NCBI RefSeq assembly: GCF_012396615.1
Contig: NZ_JAAXPV010000003.1
Span: 124,001 to 188,000, forward strand
Reading direction: 5' to 3'
Origin: Rothia terrae
GTDB taxonomy: Bacteria > Actinomycetota > Actinomycetes > Actinomycetales > Micrococcaceae
DNA length: 64,000 bases
Position numbers and translations under genes: made by a program. Numbering within the stretch: the first letter of the stretch is position 1; every line of letters starts with the position of its first letter. This document shows, in pieces, positions 4,215 to 19,578 of this stretch. Below the pieces are notes generated by a model. It ran no database searches. It saw only the letters and a list, made by a program, of their open reading frames with translations, and was not told where the DNA came from.

Positions 4215-5609
4215 GTGAAACATTTCAAAACACTTTTTCTAAAAGAAGACTCTTTGCATCAGGTGCATCATCACTCGGGTGATGACTCCCGTAATTTTCT
4301 GGTGGATACTCGCACCGGTGAGAACATCCGCTCTTTTGATCAGGCAAATAGCATTGCTTGTGAGCGCCTGAGTGAGAATGCTGGCGGTTTTGGCCGTCGT
4401 AGCCTGCTCAAGGGCGGCGCGCTGGGTGTGCTGTCGTTGAGTTCTATGATGTTGCATGAGTCGATTTACCCGCGCTATGCCTATGCGGCAGAACCTGTGG
4501 GTGATGGCACCGTGCTCGTTGTGGTCTACCTGCGCGGCGGCGCTGACGGGCTCTCACTCGTCACCCCATACAACGATGACCATTACAATGCCAACCGTAA
4601 GACCACGCGCAAGTCGCTGTCTATGAACGGTGCCTACAAGCTGGATGGCACCTTCATGCTGGCACCTGAGCTGTCCGGCCTGAAGAAGGCGTGGATTGCC
4701 GGCGACCTGTCGATTGCGCACTCGGTGGGTATCGACAACAACACGCGCTCGCACTTTAGCAACTACATCATTTCTGACCGCTCAGCACCGGTGCAGTACA
4801 AGACCGGCTGGCTGGCGCGTCTGCTGGATGCCACCTATAACAATGAGTCGCAGTTCCGCGCGTTTTCCCATGCCGGACGCGTCTCTGGCGCCTTCTACGG
4901 CCACGACCAAGAAATCCTGTCCATCAACGCGTTCAGCGATTTCAAGGTATCGACCTCCTTCAAAGACACTGAAACCATTTCTGCGGTGGCTTCACGCATC
5001 AGCCGAAATGTCGGTGGCGATTTGGGTGTCAGCGTCAAGACCACCCTCGGTGCTATGAACCAGGTTCAGGAGATCTCAAACGCCGGTTACAAGCCTGAAA
5101 ACGGTGCCGATTACCCCGACACCGCGCTGGGCGCCGGTATGAAGGATATCGCTCAGATTATTAAGGCAAACAAGGGTGTGCAGGTAGTGACCGTTGACCA
5201 GGGTGACTGGGATACCCACCGTGGACAGGCAGATCGCCTGAATACCTTGGCAAAGGACTTGGGCGATTCCCTCGGCGCTTTCTACCAAGATATGGGTGCA
5301 CTTCGTATGCAGAACGTCGTGGTCATGACTGTCTCTGAATTCGGCCGCACCACGGTAGAAAACCAGTCGCTAGGCACCGACCACGGCGCGGGCAACTTCT
5401 CATTCGTGCTCTCCGGCAAAGCAACCGGACGCATCGCCGGCGGCTCGTGGGGCGGACTCAAGAACGATGACGATAAAGACAACGCCATCCGCACCGACTA
5501 CCGCTCAGTTGCTGCTGAAGTGATGTCGAAGGGCCTTGGCGTGGATTCCGCCCGCATCGCCCAGATCTTCCCCGAATTTACGCCCAAGCCGGTTGGTCTA
5601 CTCGCATAA
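4215..5609 (+). CDS. DUF1501 protein with twin-arginine signal
   Basis: A 464-residue DUF1501 protein (alkaline-phosphatase-like fold family), the usual partner of DUF1800. It starts at GTG 4215 after an AAGGA site at 4205-4208. A twin-arginine export signal (GRRSLLKGGALGVLSLSSMML) lies at residues 60-80, followed by an AYAAEP cleavage region near 88-93. This leaves an unusually long leader of about 60 residues before the arginines. The mature part shows VVVYLRGGADGLS, a HSVG segment near 160 and the C-terminal VSEFGRTTVENQ and GTDHGAGN motifs typical of the family. Export as a folded protein is therefore likely. Its substrate is unknown. A strong terminator follows. Confidence 0.87.
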   Translation: MKHFKTLFLKEDSLHQVHHHSGDDSRNFLVDTRTGENIRSFDQANSIACERLSENAGGFGRRSLLKGGALGVLSLSSMMLHESIYPRYAYAAEPVGDGTVLVVVYLRGGADGLSLVTPYNDDHYNANRKTTRKSLSMNGAYKLDGTFMLAPELSGLKKAWIAGDLSIAHSVGIDNNTRSHFSNYIISDRSAPVQYKTGWLARLLDATYNNESQFRAFSHAGRVSGAFYGHDQEILSINAFSDFKVSTSFKDTETISAVASRISRNVGGDLGVSVKTTLGAMNQVQEISNAGYKPENGADYPDTALGAGMKDIAQIIKANKGVQVVTVDQGDWDTHRGQADRLNTLAKDLGDSLGAFYQDMGALRMQNVVVMTVSEFGRTTVENQSLGTDHGAGNFSFVLSGKATGRIAGGSWGGLKNDDDKDNAIRTDYRSVAAEVMSKGLGVDSARIAQIFPEFTPKPVGLLA

Positions 5610-5636
5610 AGAAAAGACTTTCTTAACCAGCTTATA

Positions 5637-5675
5637 AAGTGCTCCCGATCTGATGCACCAGACCGGGAGCACTTT
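5637..5675 (+). terminator. Intrinsic terminator of the DUF1800-DUF1501 operon
   Basis: AAGTGCTCCCG pairs with CGGGAGCACTT around a short loop and is followed by TATTT. It can work for both strands. Confidence 0.85.
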
Positions 5676-5706
5676 ATTTAACAACGATTTTTAGAACAGC
5701 TGGTAT

Positions 5707-5826
5707 GAGACCGATGGACGCACGTCTGCCAGCAGTCCCTCTCGCTTCACTCGCGCGGGGTGCTCGGAAGCGACTCACGTCGGCGACCCGTACTTACAAG
5801 GTGAAGAACGCGCGTCCATCGGTCTC
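5707..5826 (+). repeat. Intergenic palindromic repeat family 1, copy A
   Basis: This is a 120-base element between two convergent genes. Its ends, GAGACCGATGGACGCACG (5707-5724) and CGCGCGTCCATCGGTCTC (5809-5826), are inverted repeats with one mismatch in 18. The inner core GCCAGCAGTCCCTCTCGC (from 5728) recurs at 29260-29277 and, inverted, at 31877-31894. The outer arms of the three copies share no sequence. Confidence 0.8.
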
Positions 5827-5860
5827 TGCGCATCAGCATCGCGTCCGCTAACGCCGCAGG

Positions 5861-6607
5861 TTAGGATGCTCGCACTGCGCCCTCGTCCGGGGTGGCTGAG
5901 AGCTTTGACCAGTTGTACCAGCCGTAGATGGAGTTGAAGATGAAAGCGATGTACATGACCACCATGTCCATAGATCCCGCGGTGTCGCTGGTGAGCCAGA
6001 GGACGATTTGGGCGAGGTTGAGAACAATCCACAGTGCCCACTGTTCGCGGTAGCGGTAAACCATGAGAATCTGCGCGATAACGGCGATGGTGGTGGTAAA
6101 TGAGTCAATGTAAGGCTGGTTAGAGCCGATGCTTGCAAGGAGCATGCCGTAGAGCCAGGTGCCCAGTGCCAGAATGACTGCTACCGCTGCCCAGCCGGTG
6201 AAAGCGATGCGCCTGGTTTTGACGTCCTTCGCATCGCCCTCGTTTGCCTGACGCGTCAGGTTTTTGCGCCAGGTGTACAGTCCCCAGAACTGGGTGAGCA
6301 CGTAGAACACTGCGATCATGACCTCGCCGTAGAAGACCGCCTGCAGCGAAAGGTAGAGGTAGAGAACGTTTTGAATGACGCCGAAGAAGTAGTTTGAAAT
6401 GCGTCCTTTGCCGACCAGCGCTACACAGATGACGCCACTGATTGCAACGATGGAACCAATGATTCCCTGGGGGTATACCACCGCAAAAATGACTTGGAGC
6501 AAGATGATGGCGGGGTAAAAGATTTTTTCAAAGGGCGTGTAGCCGACGAAGAGGTCTTCGTAGACTTTTCGACTGAAGCTTTTGTGGTGGATTGCAGGTG
6601 CTGTCAT
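5861..6607 (-). CDS. pnuC: Nicotinamide riboside transporter PnuC
   Basis: A 248-residue polytopic membrane protein of the PnuC family, which lets nicotinamide riboside cross the membrane by facilitated diffusion. Several hydrophobic helices are visible, together with family motifs such as the tryptophan-rich FWGLYTWRKN near residue 107 and the C-terminal YGWYNWSKL. A charged stretch (RQANEGDAKDVKTRR) separates the two halves. It lies 48 bases downstream of nadR on the same strand. NadR phosphorylates the imported riboside and so traps it. The pair forms a classic NAD salvage operon. The ribosome site before ATG 6607 is weak (GAAAG). Confidence 0.93.
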   Translation of the reverse strand: MTAPAIHHKSFSRKVYEDLFVGYTPFEKIFYPAIILLQVIFAVVYPQGIIGSIVAISGVICVALVGKGRISNYFFGVIQNVLYLYLSLQAVFYGEVMIAVFYVLTQFWGLYTWRKNLTRQANEGDAKDVKTRRIAFTGWAAVAVILALGTWLYGMLLASIGSNQPYIDSFTTTIAVIAQILMVYRYREQWALWIVLNLAQIVLWLTSDTAGSMDMVVMYIAFIFNSIYGWYNWSKLSATPDEGAVRAS

Positions 6608-6655
6608 TCTTTTACTTTCGAAGAAATAGTGGAAAGACGGTGGGCGATGAGGACG

Positions 6656-7783
6656 CTAGTTGGCTAGCACCGCGTTGATGGCGGCTTTGGCTTGTTCGTA
6701 GCGGGCTGCGTATCCGTTGCCGGTGAGCGAGACGAGTTTATTTTCTAGGCCTGCGGCTTTTACTTCTTCCAGCATCAGGTCTGAGATTTCGGTGAGGTAG
6801 GCGTCTGTGTTGTTGGTTTGCGACCTGAAACCGTCGTCGGTGTAGCTTGCCTGGCTGACGGGTGGGATGAACAGAATAAGATCCCAGCGTGCTTTGGCGA
6901 TGAGCGAGTCTGCCATGGGTTTGAGGGCTGTTGTCCAGTCGTCCATGGTCAGCGCACTGGCGGGGTCTGCTACCGATAGCGCCGCGTAGCATTTGGTGAC
7001 CATCGCGTCGGTATCCATCAGCGCTAGCCCGCGGTTACCGGGATTATCAATGACCTCGCGGTTGAGCTGGTATTGGCCGGTGAAAACATTCTGGTAGTCC
7101 AGCAGGTCGTAGTCTTCATCGCGAATGTTCGCCTCGACCTGGTAAACCCGCGCGTACTCGTAGGAGTACGGTGCGATGTAGAGCTTGGCGAGGTCTTCGA
7201 TCAGGGTGGTTTTACCGCCGGACGCTGCGCCCATGACTAGCACGTTCTTGGTGAAGAAACGTCTGAACGGGGGAGCGATGAAATCCCAGTAGTGTAGAGG
7301 ATTCTCAAGGATGCGTTCGCTAGTGAGTGCGTCGTCGCTGCAGTCTTCACTGCACTCTGTGCCGGTGCGAGCTGAAAACGTAGAAGCATGCACGAGTTTT
7401 CCACCGGCGTCCTGAGCTAGGTGCTGGACGCGGGCGTCGTTCTCGGCGTCGTACCAGGTACGTGTGGCGGTGGCTTGGACGTGCTTTTCGCAGAGCTCTT
7501 CTATGGTCTGTGCGGGGAGCTCACTGTCGGTGACTGTTGCGAAGTCTACGATGACTAGTGGATCGTTTTTGAAGTATTCAGAGACATAGCGGTAACGCTT
7601 AATGTGAGTCATGCCGGCGTGACTACCTGCATCGTGCTCGTGCCCGGCGACAATTACTAAGGCGCCGCCGTCGTTTTCTTTCTTGGCACGTAAAATGGTG
7701 TCAATATGCGCCCGATGCAACGGCGCGAACGAACCCACCACTACACCTACGCCGGTGCCGGTGAGCTGTTTCTTGTACAGCAT
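6656..7783 (-). CDS. nadR: NadR-type NMN adenylyltransferase / ribosylnicotinamide kinase
   Basis: A 375-residue bifunctional NAD salvage enzyme without the helix-turn-helix repressor domain of the enterobacterial NadR. Residues 12-30 carry the nucleotidyltransferase motif, here [10 protein letters not shown], so the usual HxGH reads HRAH. The segment [20 protein letters not shown] (about 157-176) matches the NadR domain junction. The kinase domain follows with Walker [10 protein letters not shown] at 185-193. It should phosphorylate nicotinamide riboside and adenylate NMN to NAD. ATG 7783 has GAAAGG nine bases upstream. It precedes pnuC as an operon. The Gly-to-Ala change in HxGH makes the adenylyltransferase half worth testing. 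Confidence 0.9.
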
Positions 7784-8002
7784 GTTGGTGCCTTTCGTTG
7801 CCGCGGTGAGGGGAAATCTACGTCAAAAGTTTTGCAGGTATTGAGCCCAGAAACAAGTTATAGTCATCTCGACACTAATTATTACTTCGGTGCGTTACGT
7901 AAGCGTTCACCGTCCGTCATATGACCGTTACATTTTTCAGCTTGCACGGTATCTATACACTGGATACTTGCACCCGCCATTAGTTCGTAGATAGAGAGTC
8001 TC

Positions 8003-8701
8003 GTGAATACGTCTACCTTCACTCACGACGCCCGTCACGGCCTACGCCTGCTCCCACCCGTTGTGATGGGATATTTTCCATTGGGGCTGGCCTTCGGTGC
8101 CCTCGCTACCGATGCGGGGCTACCGCACTGGGTAGCGCCGCTCACTGCTGCTGTGGTCTACGGCGGGTCTATCGAGTTTCTGATGATTACGCTTATTACC
8201 GGCGGCGCAACGCTTGTAACCATGGCAACTACCGCTTTCGCGGTGAATTTTCGCCACGTCTTCTACCCGCTGTCATACCCTCGTCATCTCATCCGCAATG
8301 CAGGTGGCTGGTTCTACGGCGCCTATTCACTGACTGACGAGGTATATGCCATTGTGAATACCCCGCACGGCCTCACCAATCAGCGGCAACTGCTGCTCTT
8401 TCAGGCAGGAGCACACTTCACATGGTTCTTCTCAACTCTGATTGGTGTTTTTGCGGGGCAAGCCATTCCCGAAAGTTTTCACGGTCTGGACTTTGCGATG
8501 GCAGGTCTCTTCACCGTGCTCGCCATCGACTTCTTTAGACACTCGCGTCAGTATCGACCGCTCATCTACGCATTTGCCGGATGCGCGGTAGCGTGGTTTC
8601 TGGCGCCCGGGGCTTTCTTGATGGTTGCCCTGGTTATCTTCGCGGCTTTCTGCGTAGCGGATGCTGTATATCAGGTAAAGACTGGGAAGGCGGGGCACTA
8701 A
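8003..8701 (+). CDS. azlC: AzlC family branched-chain amino acid exporter subunit
   Basis: A 232-residue membrane protein, the large subunit of the AzlCD branched-chain amino acid efflux pair. Family features include GYFPLGLAFGALATDAGL at 25-42, the AVVYGGSIEFLMI segment and FAVNFRHVFYPLSYPRH, a variant of the family's NxRHxLY region, followed by LTDEVYAI. The start is GTG 8003 after GAGAG. The stop lies two bases before the azlD start, so the genes are co-translated. It is transcribed divergently from nadR. Confidence 0.9.
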   Translation: MNTSTFTHDARHGLRLLPPVVMGYFPLGLAFGALATDAGLPHWVAPLTAAVVYGGSIEFLMITLITGGATLVTMATTAFAVNFRHVFYPLSYPRHLIRNAGGWFYGAYSLTDEVYAIVNTPHGLTNQRQLLLFQAGAHFTWFFSTLIGVFAGQAIPESFHGLDFAMAGLFTVLAIDFFRHSRQYRPLIYAFAGCAVAWFLAPGAFLMVALVIFAAFCVADAVYQVKTGKAGH

Positions 8702-8703
8702 AT

Positions 8704-9027
8704 ATGCAGATTGATGTTTTGCACACCCTCGCTCTGATTGCTGTTGCCGCAGCTGTCACCTTTTCACTTCGCTTTGTGCCCATGCTGACCGTGCGCGCAA
8801 TCGCCACCAACCCCTACGTGCTGGCCATCGGCAAAATGCTCCCCGGCGGCATCATGGTCATCTTGGTGGTGTACTCCATTAACCACGGCGAATTTCACGG
8901 CGCAGGGGGACTGCTCGCTCTAGCTGTCGCACTGGGATTCACCATCGGGTTGTACCTCTGGCGTAAAAATGTGTTGCTCGCACTCGTTGCCGGCGTACTT
9001 ATCTACGGTGCGCTGACCTTCGGCTAA
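8704..9027 (+). CDS. azlD: AzlD family branched-chain amino acid exporter subunit
   Basis: A small (107-residue) hydrophobic protein, the second subunit of the AzlCD exporter. It has four predicted membrane segments and the family sequence TFSLRFVPMLTVRAIATNPY near residue 20, followed by MLPGGIMVILVVYS. The start at ATG 8704, two bases after the azlC stop, gives the usual length. Longer in-frame starts overlap azlC and are unlikely. A terminator follows. Confidence 0.9.
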   Translation: MQIDVLHTLALIAVAAAVTFSLRFVPMLTVRAIATNPYVLAIGKMLPGGIMVILVVYSINHGEFHGAGGLLALAVALGFTIGLYLWRKNVLLALVAGVLIYGALTFG

Positions 9028-9049
9028 CCCCGCCGCACACACCAACGCC

Positions 9050-9086
9050 GAGATCTCAAAACAACGGTGTTCGAGCCTCGGCATTT
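9050..9086 (+). terminator. Terminator after azlCD
   Basis: GCCGAG...CTCGGC hairpin with a loop of about 20 bases, followed by ATTTTTT. Confidence 0.6.
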
Positions 9087-9109
9087 TTTGATGTTGGATG
9101 CGTCTGCGA

Positions 9110-9769
9110 CTAAGAGACAGCTCTAAGAGCAGGCGCGCCGTCCAGCGGAACGGCATCCTCACCCTCAAAACGAGCACCCAGACCCATCTGAATAAAACGA
9201 ATGGTAGAGGTAATGTGACGCTCGCGATCCTCGGCGGACGAGGCGTCCTCAGCGCGATCCGCGCTAGAAGTGAGTGAACCGTGAACCAAGTGTGCGAGCT
9301 CTTTAATGTCGTTTTCGGGAATAAAGTTTTGCTCAATCGCCTGCGAGAGAATGCCCACAAGAACCATTTGTAGTTCACGAACGTGCTTGCCGAGCTTGGC
9401 GAAAGACTCGGGGGAGAGCACAGAGCGCATTGCCGGGCCGGGAGGCATATGGCGGCGCGCCATGTCTTCAATCGAAAGACGGATGTAGATAGCGAGCTTA
9501 TCAATAGGGTTTTCAACGCCCTCAAGATTTTCGCGTAGCTCGGTGATAAAACGCTCGGTTTCAGTAAGGGCATAGGCCACCAGAAGTTCACCCATGTCAG
9601 CGAAGTAATTGTAGACAGCGGTGCGTCCAATTCCCGCGTTCTTGGCGACGTCCGTCATGGTCAGACCGGGAAGGCCGTGTGAGTAGAGCAAACTACCGAA
9701 AGAATCGAGGATGGCGCGCTGGGTGTTTTCGCGCTGGGCTACGTTTGAGGCTGCTGAAATACGAGGCAT
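9110..9769 (-). CDS. TetR family transcriptional regulator
   Basis: A 219-residue TetR-type repressor. The N-terminal helix-turn-helix is clear: ILDSFGSLLYSHGLPGLTMT, then DVAKNAGIGRTAVYNYFADM (residues about 19-60), the canonical recognition helix with TAVYNYF. The remaining three-quarters is the helical ligand and dimer domain, with no identifiable ligand. It converges on azlCD and diverges from the queuosine transporter gene. Its target is not evident. A role controlling a neighbouring transporter is only a guess from position. Confidence 0.88.
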   Translation of the reverse strand: MPRISAASNVAQRENTQRAILDSFGSLLYSHGLPGLTMTDVAKNAGIGRTAVYNYFADMGELLVAYALTETERFITELRENLEGVENPIDKLAIYIRLSIEDMARRHMPPGPAMRSVLSPESFAKLGKHVRELQMVLVGILSQAIEQNFIPENDIKELAHLVHGSLTSSADRAEDASSAEDRERHITSTIRFIQMGLGARFEGEDAVPLDGAPALRAVS

Positions 9770-9895
9770 ATCGACACTTTACAATAAAACGTCACCAAGA
9801 ATGAGCGGGGACGTGCTGCAGCGGCGTTTTCCCAGATAACTAACAGTTTCACCGGGGCACGACCCGCGCATCCGCGTCTCACATACCCGTCACAC

Positions 9896-9926
9896 TTAGC
9901 ATTCGCCCGTTTCAACCGCGTACAAT
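9896..9926 (+). promoter_or_regulatory. Possible promoter of the queuosine-precursor transporter gene
   Basis: A TACAAT -10 box (9921-9926) has a poor -35 candidate, TTAGCA, at 9896-9901. Transcription from here would give a leader of about 97 nt before ATG 10030. Confidence 0.4.
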
Positions 9927-9932
9927 AAAACG

Positions 9933-9988
9933 GCTCGGGTGGCAGACGAGCACACCCGGTTGCTTCACAACCTGCAGAAAGCAACGGG
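9933..9988 (+). promoter_or_regulatory. Leader with mutually exclusive hairpins, candidate riboswitch
   Basis: GCTCG (9933-9937) pairs with CGAGC (9947-9951). Alternatively CGGGTG (9936-9941) pairs with CACCCG (9953-9958). The same CCCG can instead join a third stem with AAGCAACGGG (9979-9988) around GGTTGCTT. Position before a queuosine-precursor transporter suggests preQ1 or queuine sensing, but it does not match a preQ1 riboswitch class that I can confirm. Confidence 0.3.
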
Positions 9989-10029
9989 ACCTATTCACGT
10001 ACCGTCTTCATACAAATAAGAGAATATCT

Positions 10030-10716
10030 ATGTCTGAACACACCACCACCCACACGCCCACCTACGCGCGTCCGGCACACACCTACTTCGACCTTCTTCT
10101 CGCGGCATCCGCAGTAATCCTGGTGATCTCAAACATCGCCGCCACCAAAGGCGTCGCGTTCGGCCCCATTCTCACCGACGGCGGATTCTTCCTTTACCCG
10201 CTGGCGTACGTCATCGGCGATGTGGTCTCAGAAGTCTACGGTTTTAAAAACGCACGACGCGTCATTCTTACCTCTTTCGCCGCAGCGGCTTTCGCATCCC
10301 TGTGCTTCTGGATCACCATCAAATTACCCGGCGCTGAGTTCTACGAAAACCAGAGCGCGCTAGAGACCGTACTGGGCCCCGTGCCACTGATTGTCGGAGG
10401 CTCTTTGCTCGGCTACCTGGTAGGTCAGCTGTTGAACTCATGGGTGATGGTCGCCATGAAAAAGCGCACTCAAGGACGCTTTCTCGCGGGGCGACTGATG
10501 GGCTCAACCCTGGTGGGTGAACTCGCCGACACCCTGATTTTCTGTTCGATTGCGGCACCTATCCTGGGTATTTCAACCGCACCGGACTTTCTCAACTACG
10601 TCATCGTCGGCTACATCTACAAGTGCGCGGTTGAATTCATTCTCATGCCTATCACCTACCCGACCATCAGCTGGTTCAAAAAGCATGAGCCGAGCTACGC
10701 GTCTGCACACGCGTAA
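10030..10716 (+). CDS. yhhQ: Queuosine precursor transporter (YhhQ/VUT family)
   Basis: A 228-residue membrane protein of the YhhQ (COG1738) family, which imports queuosine precursors such as preQ0, preQ1 or queuine. Signature segments are ISNIAATKGVAFGPILTDGG at about 33-52 and YPLAYVIGDVVSEVYGFKNA at 56-75, the DxxxEVYG motif being diagnostic. Further membrane helices follow and GSTLVGELADTLIF lies near 157-170. The enzyme that inserts the base into tRNA, Tgt, is encoded at 20334-21839, while no preQ1 synthesis genes appear in the window. This fits a salvage lifestyle. ATG 10030 follows GAGA. A strong terminator ends the unit. Confidence 0.9.
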   Translation: MSEHTTTHTPTYARPAHTYFDLLLAASAVILVISNIAATKGVAFGPILTDGGFFLYPLAYVIGDVVSEVYGFKNARRVILTSFAAAAFASLCFWITIKLPGAEFYENQSALETVLGPVPLIVGGSLLGYLVGQLLNSWVMVAMKKRTQGRFLAGRLMGSTLVGELADTLIFCSIAAPILGISTAPDFLNYVIVGYIYKCAVEFILMPITYPTISWFKKHEPSYASAHA

Positions 10717-10804
10717 GGACGGTTACCGCGCAACATCTTGCTTGCCTCAGCGGTGCTATGAATAAAGCTCTGAACGATCCTCTTTTGCATTGGGTCGACC
10801 TATA

Positions 10805-10843
10805 AAAATGGCGTCCCCTGCTACCAGCAGGGGACGCCATTTT
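10805..10843. terminator. Bidirectional terminator between yhhQ and the subtilase gene
   Basis: AAAATGGCGTCCCCTGCT pairs perfectly with AGCAGGGGACGCCATTTT around ACC. A- and T-runs on both flanks serve the two convergent genes. Confidence 0.92.
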
Positions 10844-10866
10844 AGTGACTGATGTAGCGAGGCAAT

Positions 10867-13098
10867 TTATCGAACGACGCGTACGCCACCGTTAGCAGTC
10901 CACTTGAGGGTTGAACCGTTAGAGAACTTCACGGTTGCTGAACCATCGGAGTTGGTGACCTCGTCGGTGACGGGGAAGCCGAACTTCGAAACGTAACCGT
11001 TCTTCCACCAGTAGTTGTAGATCGCTCCCTTTGAGTTCATAGCGTGCGCACCGGTGGTTGATGACCACCAGATACCGGTTTCAGCCCAGTTAGCGTTGCG
11101 GAAGTACTGAACCGCGCCGCCAGCGGTCGGAGTCTCATCGGTGACGGGGAAGCCATCAGTGTTCACGCCACCGCGTGATTCCCACAGAGCCTTAATCGCG
11201 CCGTTACCGTTGACCAAATAAGCGCCGGTGTTCGGTGCCCAGTAGAAACGGTTTTGCTTAGAACCGTTCTGGAATACCTGACGCGCGCCGCCGCTACCAA
11301 TGCCGCCTTCGTCCTCAACGGGGAAGCCGTACTTGCCGGTGCCGCCCTCATTGGTAAAACGTGAGCCGATAGCGCCGCGCTCAGCCACCAGGTGAGTGCC
11401 GTTCTGCGACGTCCAGTACAGCGCGTTCAGTGGGCCCGATGCGGGAGCGAACTTCTGCATAGCGCCACCGGGGATGCTGACCTCATCGAATGCGGGGTAA
11501 CCCAGGCCGCGCTCGTAGTCGCTGTCGCGGTAGCGTGCGCCGATGCTCCCTGCAAAGTTCACGGAGTGCGCGTCGGTACGAGAGGTCCAGTAGATGGAGT
11601 AGTTCTTAGCGAATGCCTGAATAGCTCCGCCGTTAACACCTGAGAATTCGTTGGTGGTCGGTGAACCAAACTTGGTGATGCCGCCCTTTGACTTGTAGTA
11701 GTCGCCGATAGCGCCCTTGAGCGTGAACTGTGATGCCGGAACCGGTGCAAGGTCCGCTGCTGCCTTGACTGCCGCTGCGGCGTCTACCTGCTTGTAGCCC
11801 TGCAGGTTGTAGCCGGTGCTGGTGAGAATATTGCGGATCTGCTCTACAGTGATAGCGGGGTAGGCCTGCTTCATCAGTGCGATGGTGCCGGTGACGTAGG
11901 GTGCCGCCATGCTGGTGCCGTTCATGGTGCCGTAAGTGGGCGAACCGATGCTTGAGCTACCGGTGTTCAACGGGCCGAAGATGTCACGGCCGGTGGTACC
12001 GCCGGGGGCAACAACATCCAGCATCTCACCGTAGTTTGAGTACTCGGTCAGCGTGTACCACGAGGTAGATGCACCCACAACAATAGCTCGGTAGCAGTTA
12101 GCCGGTGAGTAGTTGCTAGCGCTCTGACCCTCGTTACCCGCTGCTACAACAACGGGTACATTGCGTGAGAGAGAATCATTGATCGCTGACTGCATCAAGT
12201 CCGAGCAGGTGTTGTCGGGGTATGCCAAAGACATGTTCACAACAGTTGCAGGACGCTTGTTGGTAGGAACACCGGGAACGTAACCGCCGGAGGTCCAGAT
12301 GAGCGCATCAGCAATATCTGAAACGTAGCCGCTACCGTTGAGACCGAGCGCGCGACCGTAGGTGAGCTGCGCACTGGGTGCTACACCGGTGGTGCCGGTG
12401 CCGTTAGCGCGTGCCGCAGCGATGCCCGCCACGAAAGTGCCGTGCCAGTCAACGCTGGGGTTATCTGAACCCTGGTCGAGCGGGTTGGTGTCGCGTCCTC
12501 CGCCGTCACGTGACAGGCTGGGAGATGAAATGAAGTCGTAGCCGTAAGAGCCACTGGTCTCAAGATCCGGGTGTACAGAGTAGCCGGTGTCGACAATACC
12601 GATGGTCTGGCCAACTCCTGTGTACTTGCTCCACGCCGGTGCGACATCGAGGTAATCGTAGGTCAGCGCCCACTGCTTGGAGTAGTAGGGCTCAGAAGTG
12701 GATGCGAGAGCTTTCACCAGGCGGTCCGGCTCAGCGGACTCAACGCGCGGATCTTTCTCGAGATTTGCAATGACCTCTTTTTGCTCGTCGGGGTTCAGCA
12801 TCTTATCCGCTGAAATTACACTGCTCTTCTCATCAGCGGCAGTGGTTTCTTTTAAAAGCTGTGAATTGTCAACAGCATCGCTTTCAGCTTCAACTTTATT
12901 CGCAACTTCTTCGCGAACTTCTTTGGGCTGCTCGTCTTTGAACTTGACGATGATGCGGTCGGTATCTTCAGAAACCTGCGTAGTTGTAGGCTGCTGGTTT
13001 GCTGGTGTGGGGAGGTTAGCCGCAGATGCGCCAGCGAAAGAAGTTGCTACCAGCGCGCATGAGCTGAGGATAACCGGGGGAAGGTATCTAAGTTTCAT
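10867..13098 (-). CDS. Secreted S8 subtilisin-like protease with LGFP repeats
   Basis: A secreted serine protease of about 743 residues. A signal peptide (LRYLPPVILSSCALVATSFA, cut after GASAA) leads to a propeptide with IIVKFKDEQP. The catalytic domain carries Asp in GIVDTGYSVHPDL (about residue 170), His in DWHGTFVAGIAAA (219), the oxyanion Asn in AAGNEG (322) and Ser in NGTSMAAPYVTG (396). The C-terminal 300 residues hold about five LGFP-type repeats (GAIG/GAI...GFPVTDE units), a module that anchors actinobacterial proteins to the mycolate or cell wall layer. I prefer ATG 13098; a TTG two codons earlier is possible. It probably digests extracellular protein, perhaps feeding the adjacent amino acid permeases, which is inference. 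Confidence 0.93.
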   Translation of the reverse strand: MKLRYLPPVILSSCALVATSFAGASAANLPTPANQQPTTTQVSEDTDRIIVKFKDEQPKEVREEVANKVEAESDAVDNSQLLKETTAADEKSSVISADKMLNPDEQKEVIANLEKDPRVESAEPDRLVKALASTSEPYYSKQWALTYDYLDVAPAWSKYTGVGQTIGIVDTGYSVHPDLETSGSYGYDFISSPSLSRDGGGRDTNPLDQGSDNPSVDWHGTFVAGIAAARANGTGTTGVAPSAQLTYGRALGLNGSGYVSDIADALIWTSGGYVPGVPTNKRPATVVNMSLAYPDNTCSDLMQSAINDSLSRNVPVVVAAGNEGQSASNYSPANCYRAIVVGASTSWYTLTEYSNYGEMLDVVAPGGTTGRDIFGPLNTGSSSIGSPTYGTMNGTSMAAPYVTGTIALMKQAYPAITVEQIRNILTSTGYNLQGYKQVDAAAAVKAAADLAPVPASQFTLKGAIGDYYKSKGGITKFGSPTTNEFSGVNGGAIQAFAKNYSIYWTSRTDAHSVNFAGSIGARYRDSDYERGLGYPAFDEVSIPGGAMQKFAPASGPLNALYWTSQNGTHLVAERGAIGSRFTNEGGTGKYGFPVEDEGGIGSGGARQVFQNGSKQNRFYWAPNTGAYLVNGNGAIKALWESRGGVNTDGFPVTDETPTAGGAVQYFRNANWAETGIWWSSTTGAHAMNSKGAIYNYWWKNGYVSKFGFPVTDEVTNSDGSATVKFSNGSTLKWTANGGVRVVR

Positions 13099-13313
13099 AT
13101 TCAATTAAAAAAGGGGACAGGGGATAGGTATGTGTGGGTGCACCGGGTGAGTGTACCGTTCACCAAGAATAATAGGTTTTTTCTCACCTGTTTAGACATT
13201 CAGCAAAAAAATATTCAATATCTCATTTTGGCGGCTATGATTGCCAGTATTACTTTTTGCAGTCAGCAAACTGCTTGCCTCGTAAAGTACCTTTTCACCA
13301 CGTTAGGTTTTCA

Positions 13314-14750
13314 ATGGGTTCACACGCTACACAGGTGTCTACAGAAGAAAAAGGTAGGCTTTCCCGTTCGCTTTCGCACGGGCAGATGACCATGATTGCT
13401 CTCGGTCTTGCCGTGGGCACCGGTCTGTTTTTGGGTTCTGGCGGGGCGATTGCGATTGCTGGCCCTGCTGTTATTATCAGCTACGCTATTGGCTCTTTGA
13501 TTGCGGCGGTGATCGCTGCATGTGCTGGTGAGATGGCTGTTCGTTACCCTGTTCAGGGTGGTTTTGGCACGATTGCAGGACGCTTCTTGGGCCCTTACGC
13601 TGGTTACTTGACGCGGTGGGCCTACTGGGCAACGATGGTCCCGCTCACCGGCGCCGAGCTGGTAGCAGTGGGCAAGTACATGGGCTACTGGTACCCTGAC
13701 ATTCCGCTGTGGCTGTGGGTTGTTGTTTCTGGCGCCATTATTGTTGCCTTGAACCTGACCTCCGTGAAGTCCTTTGGCACCATGGAATTCTTCCTCTCGT
13801 CCATCAAGGTTATTGCGGTTATCGTCTTTATCGTCTTCGGACTGGTCCTGGTTTTCTTTGGTCTGCCGAATACTCCTGCAACCGGTCTGGGCAACCTCAC
13901 CAACGACGGTGGCTTCTTGCCCAACGGCATCTCATCCATCTGGATTTCACTGGCAGTCGTCATGTTCTCCTTCGGCGGTGTTGAGCTGATTTCCATCTCG
14001 GCAGCTGAAGCCAAAGACCCCGTGCGCTCAGTGAGCTCATCCGTCAAAGCGATGATGTACCGCCTGGCTACCTTCTACGTGCTCGCGATCTTCGTGGTCG
14101 TTGCCATGATGCCGTGGAAGCAAGCTGCAACACTTGAAGGTGAAGTCAGCAGCTCACCATTCGTCATGGTCTTCTCAGCGCTGAACATTCCCTTCATCGC
14201 AGGCATCACTAATTTCGTGGTTCTCACCGCAGCACTATCCGGCGCGAACGCGGCACTCTACGCAGCAACCCGTCAGATGCACGCGCTTGCACACGACTCC
14301 ATGGCACCCAAAGCATTTGCCCGCACCACCGGCAACGGTATTCCCGCGCTGGCCTTGGGACTGTCAATGGTCGGCTCCCTAGTCGCGGTCGTTATGGCAA
14401 TCACCGGCGTCGCTAACATCTTCGTCATGATGATGTCACTGGTCACCGTCTGCGTGCTCGTCGTCTGGTTCATGATTCTTACCTCCTACATGTTTTTCAA
14501 GAAACAAGAAGGTAACGCATCACCATTCCGCGTCTGGGGCGGACGCACCACAGCCGCACTTGCTTTACTGGGCGTCCTCGCAACCTTTGCCGCCATGTTC
14601 TTTACCCAAGACATGGCAATCTCAGCAACCGTGGGCGTCGCGTTCTTCGCCTTCATCAGCATCGTCTACTTTGCTTTCGTGCGTTCGCGCCAGAGCGTCA
14701 ACCACGATGCTTTCACCGAAGCAAGCGATTACGCTAACCAGCAGCAATAG
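13314..14750 (+). CDS. AAT-family amino acid permease, first tandem copy
   Basis: A 478-residue member of the amino acid-polyamine-organocation superfamily with about 12 membrane helices. The N-terminal SLSHGQMTMIALGLAVGTGL carries the G-x-G-TGLFLGSG substrate-binding loop of helix 1, and GFGTIAGRFLGPYAG is another family signature. VVMFSFGGVELISISAAEA in helix 6 is typical of AAT carriers. Substrates in this group include GABA, D-serine/D-alanine/glycine and proline; I cannot choose. I take ATG 13314 because the frame's earlier start (13257) adds 19 atypical residues. The next gene is a close paralog, and a GC-rich hairpin separates them. Confidence 0.9.
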   Translation: MGSHATQVSTEEKGRLSRSLSHGQMTMIALGLAVGTGLFLGSGGAIAIAGPAVIISYAIGSLIAAVIAACAGEMAVRYPVQGGFGTIAGRFLGPYAGYLTRWAYWATMVPLTGAELVAVGKYMGYWYPDIPLWLWVVVSGAIIVALNLTSVKSFGTMEFFLSSIKVIAVIVFIVFGLVLVFFGLPNTPATGLGNLTNDGGFLPNGISSIWISLAVVMFSFGGVELISISAAEAKDPVRSVSSSVKAMMYRLATFYVLAIFVVVAMMPWKQAATLEGEVSSSPFVMVFSALNIPFIAGITNFVVLTAALSGANAALYAATRQMHALAHDSMAPKAFARTTGNGIPALALGLSMVGSLVAVVMAITGVANIFVMMMSLVTVCVLVVWFMILTSYMFFKKQEGNASPFRVWGGRTTAALALLGVLATFAAMFFTQDMAISATVGVAFFAFISIVYFAFVRSRQSVNHDAFTEASDYANQQQ

Positions 14751-14758
14751 CATGTAAA

Positions 14759-14780
14759 GGGGCGGGGTAATACCCGCCCC
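14759..14780 (+). terminator. GC-rich hairpin between the two permease genes
   Basis: GGGGCGGG pairs with CCCGCCCC around GTAATA. There is no T-run, so it may only attenuate or protect the upstream message. Confidence 0.5.
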
Positions 14781-14819
14781 TACGCATAACTTTTCACCAC
14801 ACACGCGAAAGAAAATCTC

Positions 14820-16259
14820 ATGGCTTCTACATCAGCTCCGGCTGAAAGCAACCAGCTCAAGCGCTCGCTCTCTCACGGTCAAATGACCATGATTGTGCTG
14901 GGCTCAGCGCTGGGTACCGGTTTGTTTTTGGGCTCAGGTTCAGCGATTGCGCTGACCGGTCCGGCGATTATTATCAGCTACGCTATTGGTTCTTTGCTGG
15001 CTGCCAGCATTGGTGGTTCTGCGGGCGAGATGGCGGTGCGCTACCCGGTGCGTGGCGGATTCGGCTCTATCGCTACCCGCTATCTCGGCCCCTACGCAGG
15101 CTTCCTCACCCGCTGGGCCTACTGGACGGCAACCTGCGCTATCACCGGTATCGAGCTGATTGCGGTGGGTAGCTACCTGAGCTTCTGGTGGCCTGATCTG
15201 CCACTGTGGGTAGGCATCGTTGTGTTTGGCGTCTTGATTATTGCGCTGAACATTCGTTCCGTGAAGTACTTCGGCGCCATGGAATTCTTCCTCTCATCCA
15301 TTAAGGTGTTCGCGCTACTGCTCTTCATCGTGGTTGGTCTGTGCCTCGTCTTCTTCGGCCTTCCTGGCCATGCCGCGTCCGGCGTTTCTAACCTGACCAA
15401 TGACGGCGGCTTTATGCCCGGCGGTTTCACCTCGGTCTGGCTGTCACTGGCGATCGTGATGTTCTCGTTCGGTGGCGTTGAGATGATTTCAATTTCAGCG
15501 GCTGAAGCTGAAGATCCGGCTCGTTCGGTGCGTACCAGCGCTAAAGCAATGATGTGGCGTTTGGCGACGTTCTACGTGCTGTCCATGTTCATTGTGGTGT
15601 CTTTGATTCCGTGGCAGCAGGCTGCCGACTTGGAAGGCACCGTTGCCACCAGCCCCTTCGTGATGGTCTTTGCTCAGGTGGGCGTGCCCGCGATTGCCTC
15701 CATTACTAACTTTGTGGTGCTGATTGCGGCGCTGTCAGCGGCAAACGCTAACCTTTATGCTGGTTCGCGCCTGATGCACTCGTTGGCCTCCGACCGCATG
15801 GCGCCGAGCTCGCTGGCGCAGACCAGTAGCGCCGGTATTCCCGTGCGCGCAATGCTGGTCTCGCTCTCGGGCGTCGTTCTTGCTGTTCTGCTGGCAATTT
15901 TCTTGCCCAAGGCGGCATTCGGCGTCATGATGACGCTCGTGATGGTGTGCGCGCTGACCGTGTGGGTATTGATTCTGCTGGCGTACATTGCTTTCAAAAA
16001 GGTGGAAGGCAACTCGGCGCCGTTCCGTCTGTGGGGCGGACGCGTCACCGCCGGTGTTGCCATCCTGGTGCTGTTTGCGATTTGGGTTGCTCTCTTCAAA
16101 CTGGACGGTAACGGCGTTCCCGCGACTGTCGGCGTGGTCTACTTTGTGCTGCTGACGATTATCTACTTTGCTGTGGTCAAGAACGTGCTGACTGTTGATG
16201 AGGACGCGTTTGCCGAGGCGCAGCGCGCAACCGAACACTACGAGAGCGACCGAAAATAA
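14820..16259 (+). CDS. AAT-family amino acid permease, second tandem copy
   Basis: A 479-residue paralog of the preceding permease with the same topology and motifs: SLSHGQMTMIVLGSALGTGL, YPVRGGFGSIATRYLGPYAG and VMFSFGGVEMISISAAEAED. The two proteins align over their whole length, so they arose by tandem duplication. Differences cluster in the helix 3 region and C-terminal third, which may have changed substrate. The start ATG 14820 follows GAAAG. A Zur-like promoter for another transcript begins only 17 bases after the stop. Confidence 0.9.
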   Translation: MASTSAPAESNQLKRSLSHGQMTMIVLGSALGTGLFLGSGSAIALTGPAIIISYAIGSLLAASIGGSAGEMAVRYPVRGGFGSIATRYLGPYAGFLTRWAYWTATCAITGIELIAVGSYLSFWWPDLPLWVGIVVFGVLIIALNIRSVKYFGAMEFFLSSIKVFALLLFIVVGLCLVFFGLPGHAASGVSNLTNDGGFMPGGFTSVWLSLAIVMFSFGGVEMISISAAEAEDPARSVRTSAKAMMWRLATFYVLSMFIVVSLIPWQQAADLEGTVATSPFVMVFAQVGVPAIASITNFVVLIAALSAANANLYAGSRLMHSLASDRMAPSSLAQTSSAGIPVRAMLVSLSGVVLAVLLAIFLPKAAFGVMMTLVMVCALTVWVLILLAYIAFKKVEGNSAPFRLWGGRVTAGVAILVLFAIWVALFKLDGNGVPATVGVVYFVLLTIIYFAVVKNVLTVDEDAFAEAQRATEHYESDRK

Positions 16260-16275
16260 AAGGTTTTATCTTGGG

Positions 16276-16304
16276 TTGCACATGAGAATGATTTTCAGTA
16301 TTAT
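16276..16304 (+). promoter_or_regulatory. Zur-box promoter driving an orphan transcript
   Basis: TTGCAC (-35, 16276-16281), a 17-base spacer and TATTAT (-10, 16299-16304) form a near-consensus promoter. The spacer contains the 15-base partial palindrome TGAGAATGATTTTCA (16283-16297), close to the Fur-family Zur operator. A bound repressor would occlude RNA polymerase. The start should be near 16311, and no gene follows except a very short one. Confidence 0.65.
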
Positions 16305-16310
16305 TGTAAG

Positions 16311-16394
16311 TACGAATTGCATGATACTTCAATGCGTTCATATGTCTGTGTGTTGAGAAAACCCCGCATCCCTTGTGGATGCGGGGTTTTCTTT
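16311..16394 (+). ncRNA. Putative Zur-controlled small RNA (or 11-codon peptide message)
   Basis: The interval between the Zur-box promoter and a strong terminator predicts a transcript of about 84 nt. It encodes at most MILQCVHMSVC (16321-16356, stop TGA), which ends directly before the terminator hairpin and has no obvious ribosome site. It lies between a permease gene and the COG0523/L36 unit that carries its own Zur-like box. Either a regulatory RNA or a Cys/His-containing leader peptide is possible. Expression is not shown. Confidence 0.4.
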
Positions 16395-16395
16395 T
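16358..16395 (+). terminator. Intrinsic terminator of the orphan transcript
   Basis: AAAACCCCGCATCC pairs with GGATGCGGGGTTTT and is followed by CTTTT. It may also terminate the permease message. Confidence 0.9.
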
Positions 16396-16455
16396 GTGCG
16401 GGCACGGGGTTGGGGTGCGTGGTGGGTGCGTCGGGCGTCTGGTGCGCTGGGTAAA

Positions 16456-16536
16456 GTGACCAGATTTGTTTCGTAGTGACCACAAAACTCTCAAGAGTAG
16501 GCGGTCTTTGGTGCTGAAAAGAGAGTTTTGTGGTCA
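16456..16536. repeat. GTGACCA-type inverted/direct repeat cluster, copy 2
   Basis: GTGACCA units start at 16456 and 16476 and an inverted unit ends at 16536. GTGACCACAAAACTCTC (16476-16492) and GAGAGTTTTGTGGTCAC (16520-16536) are perfect inverted repeats around a 27-base loop. The arrangement mirrors the cluster at 773-854 in the opposite orientation, with different inner arm bases. Confidence 0.65.
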
Positions 16537-16577
16537 CCTCCCGGGGTGGTGCTGTTTTCCATACCTTGATTTGCAAA

Positions 16578-16592
16578 CGATAATCATTATCA
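16578..16592 (+). promoter_or_regulatory. Zur-like operator upstream of the COG0523-like gene
   Basis: GATAATCATTATC (16579-16591) is a perfect 6-1-6 palindrome of Fur-family type. It lies 22 bases before the chosen start at 16614. The downstream genes (COG0523-like protein and zinc-free L36) belong to the classic zinc-starvation regulon, which favours Zur over an iron regulator. Confidence 0.7.
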
Positions 16593-16613
16593 AATAAGCT
16601 AAGAGGTATGCAG

Positions 16614-17699
16614 ATGACAGCTCTCTCATCCCTCAGCCTTTTTGCACGCACCGACGCTGCCGACCACTGGCTCACCTATTGCCAGCAGCACAGTACTGTG
16701 CATCAAGACAGCAGCCACACCTGCCAGGACGCGCCAGCCGACGTAGTCAGCTACGACAGCCTCACCAACGACGACGGCATCGAACTGCTGCGCACCCACA
16801 CCCGCGCATCCGGCGAAAAAGAGCAAAGCCGCATCCATATAGACGGCGACTGCCTCTCATGTGCAACCCTCGCTGAAATGACAGATTACTTGCCAGCTAT
16901 CGCTGAGCGCACCGAGCGTCTTTTGTTGATTCTTCCGCCCGGTGTGTCCATTAGTACCGCCCTGAAGGTCGCCAACGACTGCCCCCACATTGAGCTGGTT
17001 ACCGCATCATTGGCAGTTCTAGATTCAGATATCGAAGATGATCTATGGTCTTCTGAAACTCTCAACGCCCGTGGCGTCACCGGCTCATGTGCCGATGAAC
17101 GCACGCCGGGGGAATTCGTCGTAGCCGATCTCAGTTACGCAGACACCGCGCTGGTTGCCACCCACCCCTTTGACTGTGAGAGCTCGAACCATCGGCGCAC
17201 CTTGGAACTGCTACGAAACATAGCTCCCCACCTCACCGTGATTTCCGTGGAACACAAAGAACCCGCCGAATGCGGCTACCACAATATCGTCGCGGCGCAA
17301 ACCCGCGCGCGTCCGGGGCATCTGCACGTAACTGAGGACGTGTTGTTGGGCGAGAATGGCGAATTTTCCACCGCCGTCATCACCACCGAGAAACTCATCG
17401 ACTCAGAACAGCTTGCGCAGCTGCTCCCTCAGATTGTTGAAGGTATGGTGCGCGTGCGCGGGCACGTGTGGCTCGATAGCCACCAGGATGACCGTGTGGC
17501 GGTTGAAGGCATCGGCCCGGTTGTCTGGTTGCAAACTCACGGCGCGTGGGGACGCAAGTTGCCGGCCACGCGCATCGCTCTCACCGGCGAGGACGTCAAC
17601 GCCGCCGAGCTTCAAAAACTTTTAGAAACGTGCACCATTACCGGTGACGATATTGCGCAAGAACTTTTGCGTGCGGATCAAACATTGAAAGAAGGTTAG
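16614..17699 (+). CDS. COG0523/CobW-like zinc-homeostasis protein lacking GTPase motifs
   Basis: A 361-residue protein related to COG0523 metal chaperones (YciC/ZigA/CobW). The C-terminal domain is recognisable: [20 protein letters not shown], then [11 protein letters not shown]. In the middle, [13 protein letters not shown] (C80, C83) stands where the metal-binding GCxCC motif of active members lies. The N-terminal P-loop (GxxGxGKTT) is absent, and the NKxD guanine motif position reads ATHPFD, so GTP hydrolysis is unlikely. The N-terminus is instead rich in Cys and His ([16 protein letters not shown]). Start: AGAGG at 16602-16606 is ideally spaced for ATG 16614, not 16608. A Zur-like operator precedes it and the L36 paralog follows two bases after the stop. 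It is probably a zinc-starvation protein. Confidence 0.75.
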
Positions 17700-17701
17700 T
17701 G

Positions 17702-17827
<126 letters not shown>

Positions 17828-17834
17828 CTTCTTC

Positions 17835-17908
17835 CCGCCGAGATCCTGATTCATCGACGAAATCCTGATTTAAAACAGGATCTCGTCGATGAATCAGGAT
17901 CTCGGCGG
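17835..17908. repeat. 33-base near-perfect inverted repeat after the L36 gene
   Basis: Arms 17835-17867 and 17876-17908 are complementary over 33 bases with one mismatch, around an 8-base A/T-rich loop. Both ends are CCGCCGAGATCC / GGATCTCGGCGG, and each arm contains ATCCTGATT twice. There is no T-run after it, so it is not an ordinary terminator. Confidence 0.85.
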
Positions 17909-17943
17909 TTAAAGGCGGTTAAAGGCGGTTAAAGGCGGTTGAA
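17904..17943 (+). repeat. Tandem 10-base repeat GGCGGTTAAA
   Basis: Four head-to-tail units of GGCGGTTAAA, the last reading GGCGGTTGAA, begin inside the right arm of the long hairpin and end 24 bases before the thioesterase start. Confidence 0.85.
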
Positions 17944-17967
17944 GGACGCGCCGCCTCGCGTCCTAAG

Positions 17968-18432
17968 ATGGAGCGTATGACTGATTCTGTTTTTGTGGTG
18001 GATGTTCCCCTGCGTTGGGGTGATATGGATGCGTACGGGCACGTGAACAACGTGACAATGATGCGCGTGCTTGAGGAAGCGCGTATCGCGGTGTTTGGTT
18101 TGCCGCCGTCCTCGGGCGAACCCGTTGAGCAGGCACCAAAGATTCCTCTGTTTGAGCAGTTGGAAAGCGGTGTGCAAGCGCTCGTTGTTGAGAACTGGGT
18201 GAAGTATCGCGCGCAGCTTGCCTACCGTGGTTTGCCCGCGAAAGTGGAGGTGCGCATCGTTGGGGTAAAGCCTGCAACGATTACTGTGAGCTACGAGCTG
18301 TTTGATGCGTCCACTGGCGAGCACTGTGTAAGCGGTACTACCACGCTGGCGTTCTTCAACACCACTACCGGTGGGCTCGTTCGGCTGACCAAAGACCAAA
18401 GGAGTATGCTTGAGGAGCACCGCGCATCGTAG
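17968..18432 (+). CDS. Acyl-CoA thioesterase, 4HBT hotdog family
   Basis: A 154-residue single hotdog-fold thioesterase of the YbgC/FadM group. The signature LRWGDMDAYGHVNNVTMMRV (residues 15-34) contains the catalytic Asp and the HVNN motif, and VLEEARIAVFG follows. VVENWVKYRAQLAYR in the centre fits the long helix and strand. It likely hydrolyses acyl-CoA thioesters in the cytosol; chain specificity is unknown. Either ATG 17968 or 17977 could be the start. The tandem 10-base repeat ends just upstream. Confidence 0.9.
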   Translation: MERMTDSVFVVDVPLRWGDMDAYGHVNNVTMMRVLEEARIAVFGLPPSSGEPVEQAPKIPLFEQLESGVQALVVENWVKYRAQLAYRGLPAKVEVRIVGVKPATITVSYELFDASTGEHCVSGTTTLAFFNTTTGGLVRLTKDQRSMLEEHRAS

Positions 18433-18489
18433 CTAGGCTCGTTTGTGCGGTTTTTTGTGCTCAAAATTGTCGAGGAATAAGGGGCTAGT

Positions 18490-19578
18490 GTGACATCCGC
18501 TCGCGAACATATTGTGCAGATGATGAAGTTTGCTCCCGCGCAACGTGATCATGTGCCGGCTTTTCGTATTGCGCTGAGCGTGGCGATTCCGCTTCTTATT
18601 CTTCTTTTTACGGATCATCTTGAGCTTGCGATTTATTCGGCGTTTGGTGGTTTTACCGCTCTGTATGCTCGCAATGAGCCGCGCGCGTCTAGGTTTAAGC
18701 ACCAGTCGCAGGCGGGCATCATTTTGTGTCTGTGCATCGCTATTGGCATGTTGCTTTCTGGTTTTCATGCTTCGATTTGGGTGACGACGCTGGTGTGTTC
18801 GGCAATCGGTGGTGTGGGCGCGATGGTGAGCACGGTGCTGAATCTGCGTCCAGGCGGTTCTCTTTTTCATATTTTTGCGACGGCTGCGGTGGCGTCGGTG
18901 CCTGTGGCGACGCATCCTGCTATTCCTCTTGCGGTGGCTATCGCATCCGCTGGTTTTTCGGTGGTGTTGGGTCTTGTCAGTAGCGTGGTGGGCGAGGGAA
19001 TTAAGATTGTTTCTACTCCGCCGCCGCATTCTCTGACTCGCAATCAGTTGCTTGAGCAGGGCGTTATCTACTTTTTTGTAACGCTTATTGCCGGATGCGT
19101 GGGCTATGTGTTGGGGCTTTCGCACAGTTATTGGGCGATGGTTGCGGCTAACGCTATTGTGGTTGGTCCGAATATGTATGCCCGTTTTTATAGGGGCGTG
19201 CAGCGTACGGTGGGCACGTTTGTGGGTGTGCTGATTACGGCGTTTTTTGTGTCGATGCACCCGGACCAGTGGCATATGGCGGTGCTGGTGATCGTGTTCC
19301 AGTTCTTGGCTGAGATTTTTGTGTTGCGTAATTATGGTTTTGCCATGCTGTTTGTGACTCCGCTGGCGTTGTTTATGATTCAGTTGGCTAAGCCGCTGAC
19401 CAGCTATGAGTTGTTGACGGATCGTATGCTTGAAACCGCTATTGGCGCGGTGGTCGGGATGCTGGCTGTTTTAGTAACGCGTAGCCCCGATAAGCTGGGT
19501 CAGGACACCGTGGCTATTCCGATTTTGCGTGCAGCTCGTAACGTGCGTGGCTCGGTGAGAAGCAATTTTGATCAGTAA
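18490..19578 (+). CDS. FUSC-family membrane protein
   Basis: A 362-residue protein with two clusters of hydrophobic helices (residues about 25-170 and 195-325). It resembles the FUSC / aromatic-acid exporter superfamily, in which a repeated membrane block includes HSYWAMVAANAIVVGPN (here near 213-229) and a following GTFVGVLI segment. The N-terminus starts at GTG 18490 with GGGG a few bases before. It may export small organic acids or be a membrane-stress protein. The substrate is not inferable. It stands 57 bases after the thioesterase and may be co-transcribed with it. Confidence 0.8.
   Translation: MTSAREHIVQMMKFAPAQRDHVPAFRIALSVAIPLLILLFTDHLELAIYSAFGGFTALYARNEPRASRFKHQSQAGIILCLCIAIGMLLSGFHASIWVTTLVCSAIGGVGAMVSTVLNLRPGGSLFHIFATAAVASVPVATHPAIPLAVAIASAGFSVVLGLVSSVVGEGIKIVSTPPPHSLTRNQLLEQGVIYFFVTLIAGCVGYVLGLSHSYWAMVAANAIVVGPNMYARFYRGVQRTVGTFVGVLITAFFVSMHPDQWHMAVLVIVFQFLAEIFVLRNYGFAMLFVTPLALFMIQLAKPLTSYELLTDRMLETAIGAVVGMLAVLVTRSPDKLGQDTVAIPILRAARNVRGSVRSNFDQ

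Follow-up and report, generated by a model that had tools for sequence, protein, structure and literature searches.

A conserved putative small-RNA locus of Rothia with a Zur-type box in its promoter

The 64,000-nt stretch of Rothia terrae DNA analysed here (the window, whose positions serve as coordinates throughout; its genome of origin is G000, the own genome) carries, directly behind an amino-acid permease gene, a short predicted transcription unit whose promoter encloses a palindrome of the Zur type. Its parts are a 5' hairpin, a linker whose core, UGUCUGUG, never varies, and an intrinsic terminator, and the unit occupies one syntenic place in 14 of the 35 genomes of our genus sample. The explanation that we prefer, and consider probable, is that of an independent small-RNA gene encoding a Zur-repressed, trans-acting small RNA (sRNA) of zinc starvation.

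Architecture of the locus

The promoter lies on the forward strand, as do all genes and RNA features of the window described below, and is formed by the -35 element TTGCAC (16276..16281) and the -10 element TATTAT (16299..16304). The 17-nt spacer between them holds the unstranded 7-1-7 box TGAGAATGATTTTCA (16283..16297), and the initial annotation, which had placed a Zur-type palindrome there, was accurate in this respect, coordinates included. Its description of the promoter as near-perfect was too strong: TATTAT matches TATAAT at five of six positions, TTGCAC agrees with TTGACA at three of six, and a promoter consensus scan picked it up only in an adjacent register, with 9 of 12 matches. Judged by sequence, the promoter is a moderate one. 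TTGCAA or TTGAAA stands at the -35 position in four relatives, and TAGACT, TATACT and TAAGCT are found among relatives at the -10 position.

An RNA of ~85 nt (16311..16395) is predicted, its start being deduced from the -10 element and its end from the terminator. It would begin with the 5' hairpin (16314..16339), continue through the single-stranded linker AUAUGUCUGUGUGUU (16340..16354), in which the eight bases of the core occupy 16343-16350, and end in a 16-bp terminator hairpin (16356..16392) whose arms (16356-16371 and 16377-16392) are complementary at 16/16 positions around a loop of 5. A terminator after a short transcript had been proposed from the start, and a perfect hairpin of this length bears the proposal out. 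For the predicted RNA the folding energy is -37.1 kcal/mol, which corresponds to z -6.5 when dinucleotide shuffles serve as the reference; taken alone, the 5' hairpin stretch reaches a z of only -1.05. A simple terminator scan of 14000-19000 returned 6 sites against 6.7 in shuffles, which is no excess, so that stem length and conservation carry the weight of the terminator. In an Rfam search of the window only tRNA and SRP RNA reached the gathering score, none of them at the small-RNA locus; eleven sub-threshold matches fell within 16240-16620, most of them overlapping the terminator, and the R. mucilaginosa locus (L034, 4700-4950) gave no Rfam match.

Whether the product was an sRNA or a peptide had been left undecided by the initial annotation. 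An 11-codon open reading frame (ORF), MILQCVHMSVC (16321..16356), is indeed present and contains two Cys and one His. No ribosome-binding site is visible before it, its stop is lost in G007, the frame is off by one base in the clade of seven genomes that lack the box, and G005 has no matching start. Since neither frame nor start nor stop is conserved, a small RNA is the most likely product, an interpretation that conservation supports well, and a zinc-starvation micropeptide is scarcely credible. The locus combines a promoter of its own, recognised by its letters, with an intrinsic terminator and the lack of a conserved ORF, as expected of an sRNA gene.

The neighbourhood of the unit is conserved as well. 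The permease gene (14820..16259) is the constant upstream neighbour, and a gene for a 4HBT thioesterase-like protein (17968..18432) is the usual downstream one. Between terminator and thioesterase gene, the window contains a second promoter, TTGCAA-18-TAAGCT (16571..16600), built like the small-RNA promoter with the Zur-like box CGATAATCATTATCA in its spacer; this box had also been announced and is present at 16578-16592. The second promoter serves COG0523-rpmJ, that is, the genes of a COG0523-like protein (16608..17699), which matched CobW_C only and gave no match to the CobW GTPase domain, and of the type B ribosomal protein L36 (rpmJ, 17702..17824; NF002021 above cut-off), which we take to be the zinc-free type. 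The COG0523-like protein also showed a below-cut-off match to the NCBIfam ribosome-hibernation recruiter MRF. Between the terminator and the second box stands a perfect inverted repeat (16476-16537) with arms of 17 bp set 28 nt apart, and a repeat resembling it by eye precedes the thioesterase gene in G039. A long imperfect inverted repeat (17822-17941, 50-nt arms, 84%) follows rpmJ and continues into short TTAAAGGCGG-type tandem repeats.

Conservation of the unit within Rothia

A DNA search of 39 genomes showed the transcript region to be conserved. The string ATGTCTGTGTGTT was found by exact search in 10 of the 35 genus genomes, as a single copy in each and always downstream of an amino-acid permease gene. 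The 4HBT thioesterase gene comes next in the window and in eight of the nine other loci compared (10-12.5 kb each); in G007, the exception, it lies ~10 kb away, past an insertion. A covariance model built from the ten loci gave 11 strong matches in the genus (all at E <= 7.5e-11), the newly found one being R. endophytica (G042, E 3e-11), and two weaker matches at the permease-thioesterase place, in R. nasimurium (G005, E 1.6e-3) and G041 (E 0.027). The G041 value is not significant alone and it is the position that constitutes the evidence; the matches that follow (E >= 0.04) are located elsewhere. Three loci from outside the model (G042, G005, G041) were thus matched at the conserved place. 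G004 was added by reading the space before its thioesterase gene, which brings the set to the window's own genome, G001, G004, G005, G007, G009, G010, G015, G017, G020, G022, G041, G042 and G043.

The 8-base core is identical in all 14 loci, and TGTCTGTG in the linker is common to all of them. A GC-rich terminator hairpin is present in 12 of the 14, with stem sequences that differ widely between lineages while pairing remains almost complete throughout. That the stems diverge yet still pair is strong evidence for selection on the terminator hairpin rather than on its letters. Pairing preserved through rewriting, next to a fixed linker, is the pattern of a sequence conserved as RNA. The drawn 5' hairpin is paired in 96% of cells (seven distinct rows), and different hairpin folds stand at its position in G004 and G005.

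A unit that sits upstream of a same-strand gene and has a terminator at its end could also be a cis-acting leader or attenuator of that gene, be it COG0523 or the thioesterase. The next gene varies between species and, in the window, COG0523 has its own boxed promoter. Moreover, a linker that stays fixed while the terminator stem is rewritten makes a conserved antiterminator pairing with the stem impossible. We rejected attenuation of that kind and regard a cis-acting role altogether as improbable.

Among 295 genomes of the family, the covariance model reached E < 1e-10 in only six, all of which belong to the genus. Matches in other genera, 13 genomes in all, were at E 0.0015 or weaker, and the unit was not seen at the four loci inspected among these (L046, L048, L050, L051). 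A wider contig scan returned 14 stretches, six of them from Rothia and the other eight uninspected.

The Zur-type box and its candidate regulator

At each of its positions the box agrees with the Zur motif of Streptomyces coelicolor, tGaNNatSatNNtCa, and with the core of the znuA motif of actinobacteria, TGaNAANNNTTNtCA, as both appear in the excerpts of the source consulted (PMC5472717). In the own genome (2.48 Mb), the corresponding pattern TGANAANNNTTNTCA has 4 occurrences, against 2 for the reversed control pattern, and the chance of a match inside one given promoter is estimated at roughly 1e-5 to 1e-4. Seven of the 14 loci have a box before the core, five of them exact to TGANAANNNTTNTCA (window, G017, G042, G005, G004) and two imperfect (G007, G041). 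Box scores were computed with a matrix from ten hand-picked boxes, several taken from these very promoters, and are therefore partly circular, which the pattern counts are not. Because G005 and G004 carry the box though no COG0523 gene lies between permease and thioesterase gene, the box belongs with the RNA. Whether box and promoter are conserved among relatives had been set beforehand as a test on which the annotation could fail; the comparison was made and did not refute it.

In a tree of the thioesterase proteins, the seven box-less genomes form one clade. The boxed seven require 4 label changes (starred branches force 2) and are scattered among rows without the RNA, which suggests an old element that was repeatedly lost, on a tree that is short and partly unresolved. 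The RNA of the clade with R. mucilaginosa (G043) and R. aeria (G001) stands under a different promoter, as judged from the 150 bases that precede the core. The best box-like site among the box-less seven is weak and belongs to G001, where it starts 107 bases ahead of the core. A common AT-rich stretch around CGTAATA-AACCGTAAAAAT in G043, G009, G022 and G020 may be a site of another regulator.

Two FUR-family genes are encoded by eight of the nine genomes examined and three by the ninth. In all seven regions examined, a FUR-family gene lies beside ZnuA-type genes (ZnuA being confirmed by Pfam in G000 and G017, and recognised by eye in the rest). The FUR-family protein of this kind in the own genome (105 bits) contains the stretch HHHHHLLCRNC and its gene adjoins the Pfam ZnuA gene; neighbourhood and stretch together point to it as the probable Zur. 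Exact boxes precede znuA in G010 and G017. The own genome has its second FUR gene next to a Pfam Catalase gene, and this arrangement, with at least two FUR-family genes in each of the nine genomes, raises the question of whether the box is read by the catalase-side protein, in which case the RNA would answer to peroxide or iron rather than zinc. A box before an apparent FecCD-type transporter gene in the own genome, seen by eye, would agree with such an assignment. Set against it are the complete fit to the Zur motif, the same type of box before znuA in the two genomes just named, the Zur-like box before COG0523-L36 in the window, and the surroundings (5 kb) of the catalase-side gene in the own genome, where no such box was found (the best site scored 7.9, the listed boxes 20-26). 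We therefore judge regulation by the catalase-side protein to be distinctly unlikely.

Besides the FecCD-type gene, two other genes were noticed by eye to have Zur-type boxes nearby: in the own genome, that of a secreted trypsin-like protease, and in both the own genome and G007, a phosphoglycerate-mutase-like gene. The protease, phosphoglycerate-mutase-like and FecCD-type genes are possible further members of the regulon.

Putative function and significance

Under the preferred explanation, Zn-Zur would occupy the box between the -35 and -10 elements of zinc-replete cells and block RNA polymerase. Upon zinc starvation, Zur would leave and the RNA would be transcribed as far as its own terminator. 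The exposed linker with its invariant core would then most likely pair with target mRNAs, and this pairing would tune the expression of zinc-related genes in parallel with the COG0523 and L36 genes, which would be under the same control. We infer mRNA pairing because the linker is exposed and invariant, and by analogy with the RyhB and s-SodF RNAs discussed below.

Potential targets were sought by exact seed, by seed plus start codon, by wobble-extended core and by duplex energy. The exact 10-mer CACACAGACA gave 44 rows in 10 genomes, ten of which are the RNA itself, leaving 1-9 other sites per genome; among the 23 of these 34 sites that were inspected, no gene was seen in common between genomes. 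The pattern CACAGAC-N0-20-ATGR matched 223 times in six RNA-bearing genomes (~15 per Mb, the RNA itself possibly being included) and 262 times in eight genomes without detected RNA (~13 per Mb), genome sizes being partly rounded. Compared with the reversed pattern, the ratios are 223:150 (1.5) with the RNA and 262:254 (1.0) without it, a slight surplus in the direction of pairing between sets of genomes whose base composition may differ. Among the matches listed, the seed-site strings that recur between genomes mostly recur in RNA-less genomes too. Twenty of the 147 listed CACAGAC sites of G017, G010, G042 and G009 were inspected, having been picked by eye for a plausible start; the listing extended to these four genomes and part of G007. 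One of the CACAGAC sites lies just before atpC in G017 (L258), within the end of the upstream frame (...KAQTGAK), and is near-identical in G010 and G009; no site of this type was seen among the matches listed for G042 or for the RNA-less G040, G021, G011 and G012. It could reflect codon conservation or a target, the former explaining it as well as the latter.

The wobble-extended core CRRCRCRCRGRCR matched 104 times in four genomes, own RNA included, against 89 times for its reversed control. Duplex energies were computed against the starts of neighbouring genes, znuA and zur, with 200 mononucleotide shuffles for each of the 64 pairs: 5 of the 64 reached 0.03 or lower, and the only gene to do so twice was the first permease, in the close relatives G009 and G043. 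Two single genes considered as targets, one with a PhnA domain in the own genome (L192, L224) and the other of the Meth_synt_2 type in G017 (L257), were treated as chance matches. The PhnA-domain gene shows an apparent frameshift at a T run between its zinc-ribbon start and the remainder (L224, ~1310-1690).

Invariance of the linker core, when complementary sites are at best marginally in excess, would also be expected if a zinc-controlled sRNA acted by binding a protein, its GU-rich linker being the protein site. That exact seeds are only weakly enriched says little against pairing, and no candidate protein was sought or found; we hold this mode of action to be unlikely, if the least unlikely of the alternatives.

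Several observations weigh against a Zur-repressed, target-pairing RNA. None of the four search procedures established a target. The RNA is kept without a promoter box in seven of the 14 genomes (G001, G009, G010, G015, G020, G022, G043), from which it follows that zinc control was either not ancestral or lost. Only two of the seven znuA regions have exact boxes, those of G007, G042, G005 and G000 being degenerate and G009 having none. Covariation in the 5' hairpin is not above shuffles (500/500 as high), pair changes being one-sided without any two-sided case. An insertion cuts the terminator in G007, and G041 has lost its terminator and part of the box. Finally, neither the model nor the exact core detected the RNA in 18 of the 35 genus genomes, the locus being uninspected in the three that remain (G016, G024, G048). 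In seven of the 18 (G002, G011, G012, G014, G021, G040, G046), the permease gene nearly abuts the thioesterase gene; five others have the permease without the core (G039, G047, G006, G008, G019), five have no permease match before the thioesterase gene (G003, G013, G023, G044, G045), and G018 lacks the core despite a COG0523-L36 pair with a Zur-type box. The G007 insertion, of ~9 kb (L144, ~4300-13320), carries a transposase-type gene (rve and HTH_21 domains) and splits the RNA from COG0523-L36.

Decay in G007 and G041 and the many species in which the element was not found would suit a leftover, box and terminator having survived from a zinc gene now lost or forming part of the COG0523 operon, and the transcript inert. 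Such a remnant would hardly be expected to retain its box where COG0523 is not adjacent, nor a 19-base linker stretch identical in all seven box-less genomes together with the core shared by all 14, and we consider it very improbable. As to the zinc control put forward in the initial annotation, motif, position and recurrence in distinct lineages argue for Zur as the predicted repressor, while half of the RNA-keeping genomes, being without the box, argue against it.

Comparable circuits are known for other metals. RyhB and its analogues are Fur-repressed, iron-sparing sRNAs made when the Fur-family repressor loses its metal (PMC9294342, PMC9825181, in the parts consulted). The Rothia RNA resembles them as a short sRNA predicted under such a repressor, with pairing proposed by analogy; it differs by the metal sensor, by having no established target and by matching no Rfam family above the gathering score. 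In S. coelicolor, s-SodF is under the control of the nickel regulator Nur, according to the relevant passage of a 2022 review of metal-responsive regulatory RNAs (PMC9294342), and is likewise an actinobacterial sRNA under a Fur-family regulator, predicted in our case; the Rothia RNA has a promoter of its own and a box that fits Zur. Escherichia coli Zur controls L31p, a protein repressor that acts on the RNA of the zinc-protein gene L31 (PMC9825181, in the extract available); the idea of Zur controlling a repressor of a zinc-protein gene is common to both, the repressor there being a protein and not an sRNA. The Haloferax volcanii sRNA s479 is linked to zinc transport (PMC8155600) and shares the connection to zinc, but is archaeal, and the opening of the abstract mentions no Zur control. 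A metatranscriptome paper with Rothia non-coding RNAs mentions other loci in the portion available (PMC7160235).

The same 2022 review gives "NR" (none reported) for an sRNA of Zur and states, in the section consulted, that further sRNA-dependent metal-sparing responses, zinc included, very likely exist (PMC9294342). Our literature search for a Zur- or zinc-regulated bacterial sRNA, which left most subscription papers and all preprints outside, found none by exact wording and recognised none among the broader results listed. We tentatively raise the possibility, doubtful as it is at present, that the locus encodes the first Zur-repressed zinc-sparing sRNA, a zinc counterpart of RyhB that would be produced during zinc starvation, pair through UGUCUGUG with the mRNAs of dispensable zinc proteins and have been rewired to a different control in the R. 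mucilaginosa/R. aeria clade. The locus offers a concrete and testable candidate for a zinc-starvation RNA in Rothia, for which the relatives that keep the RNA without the box provide built-in controls.
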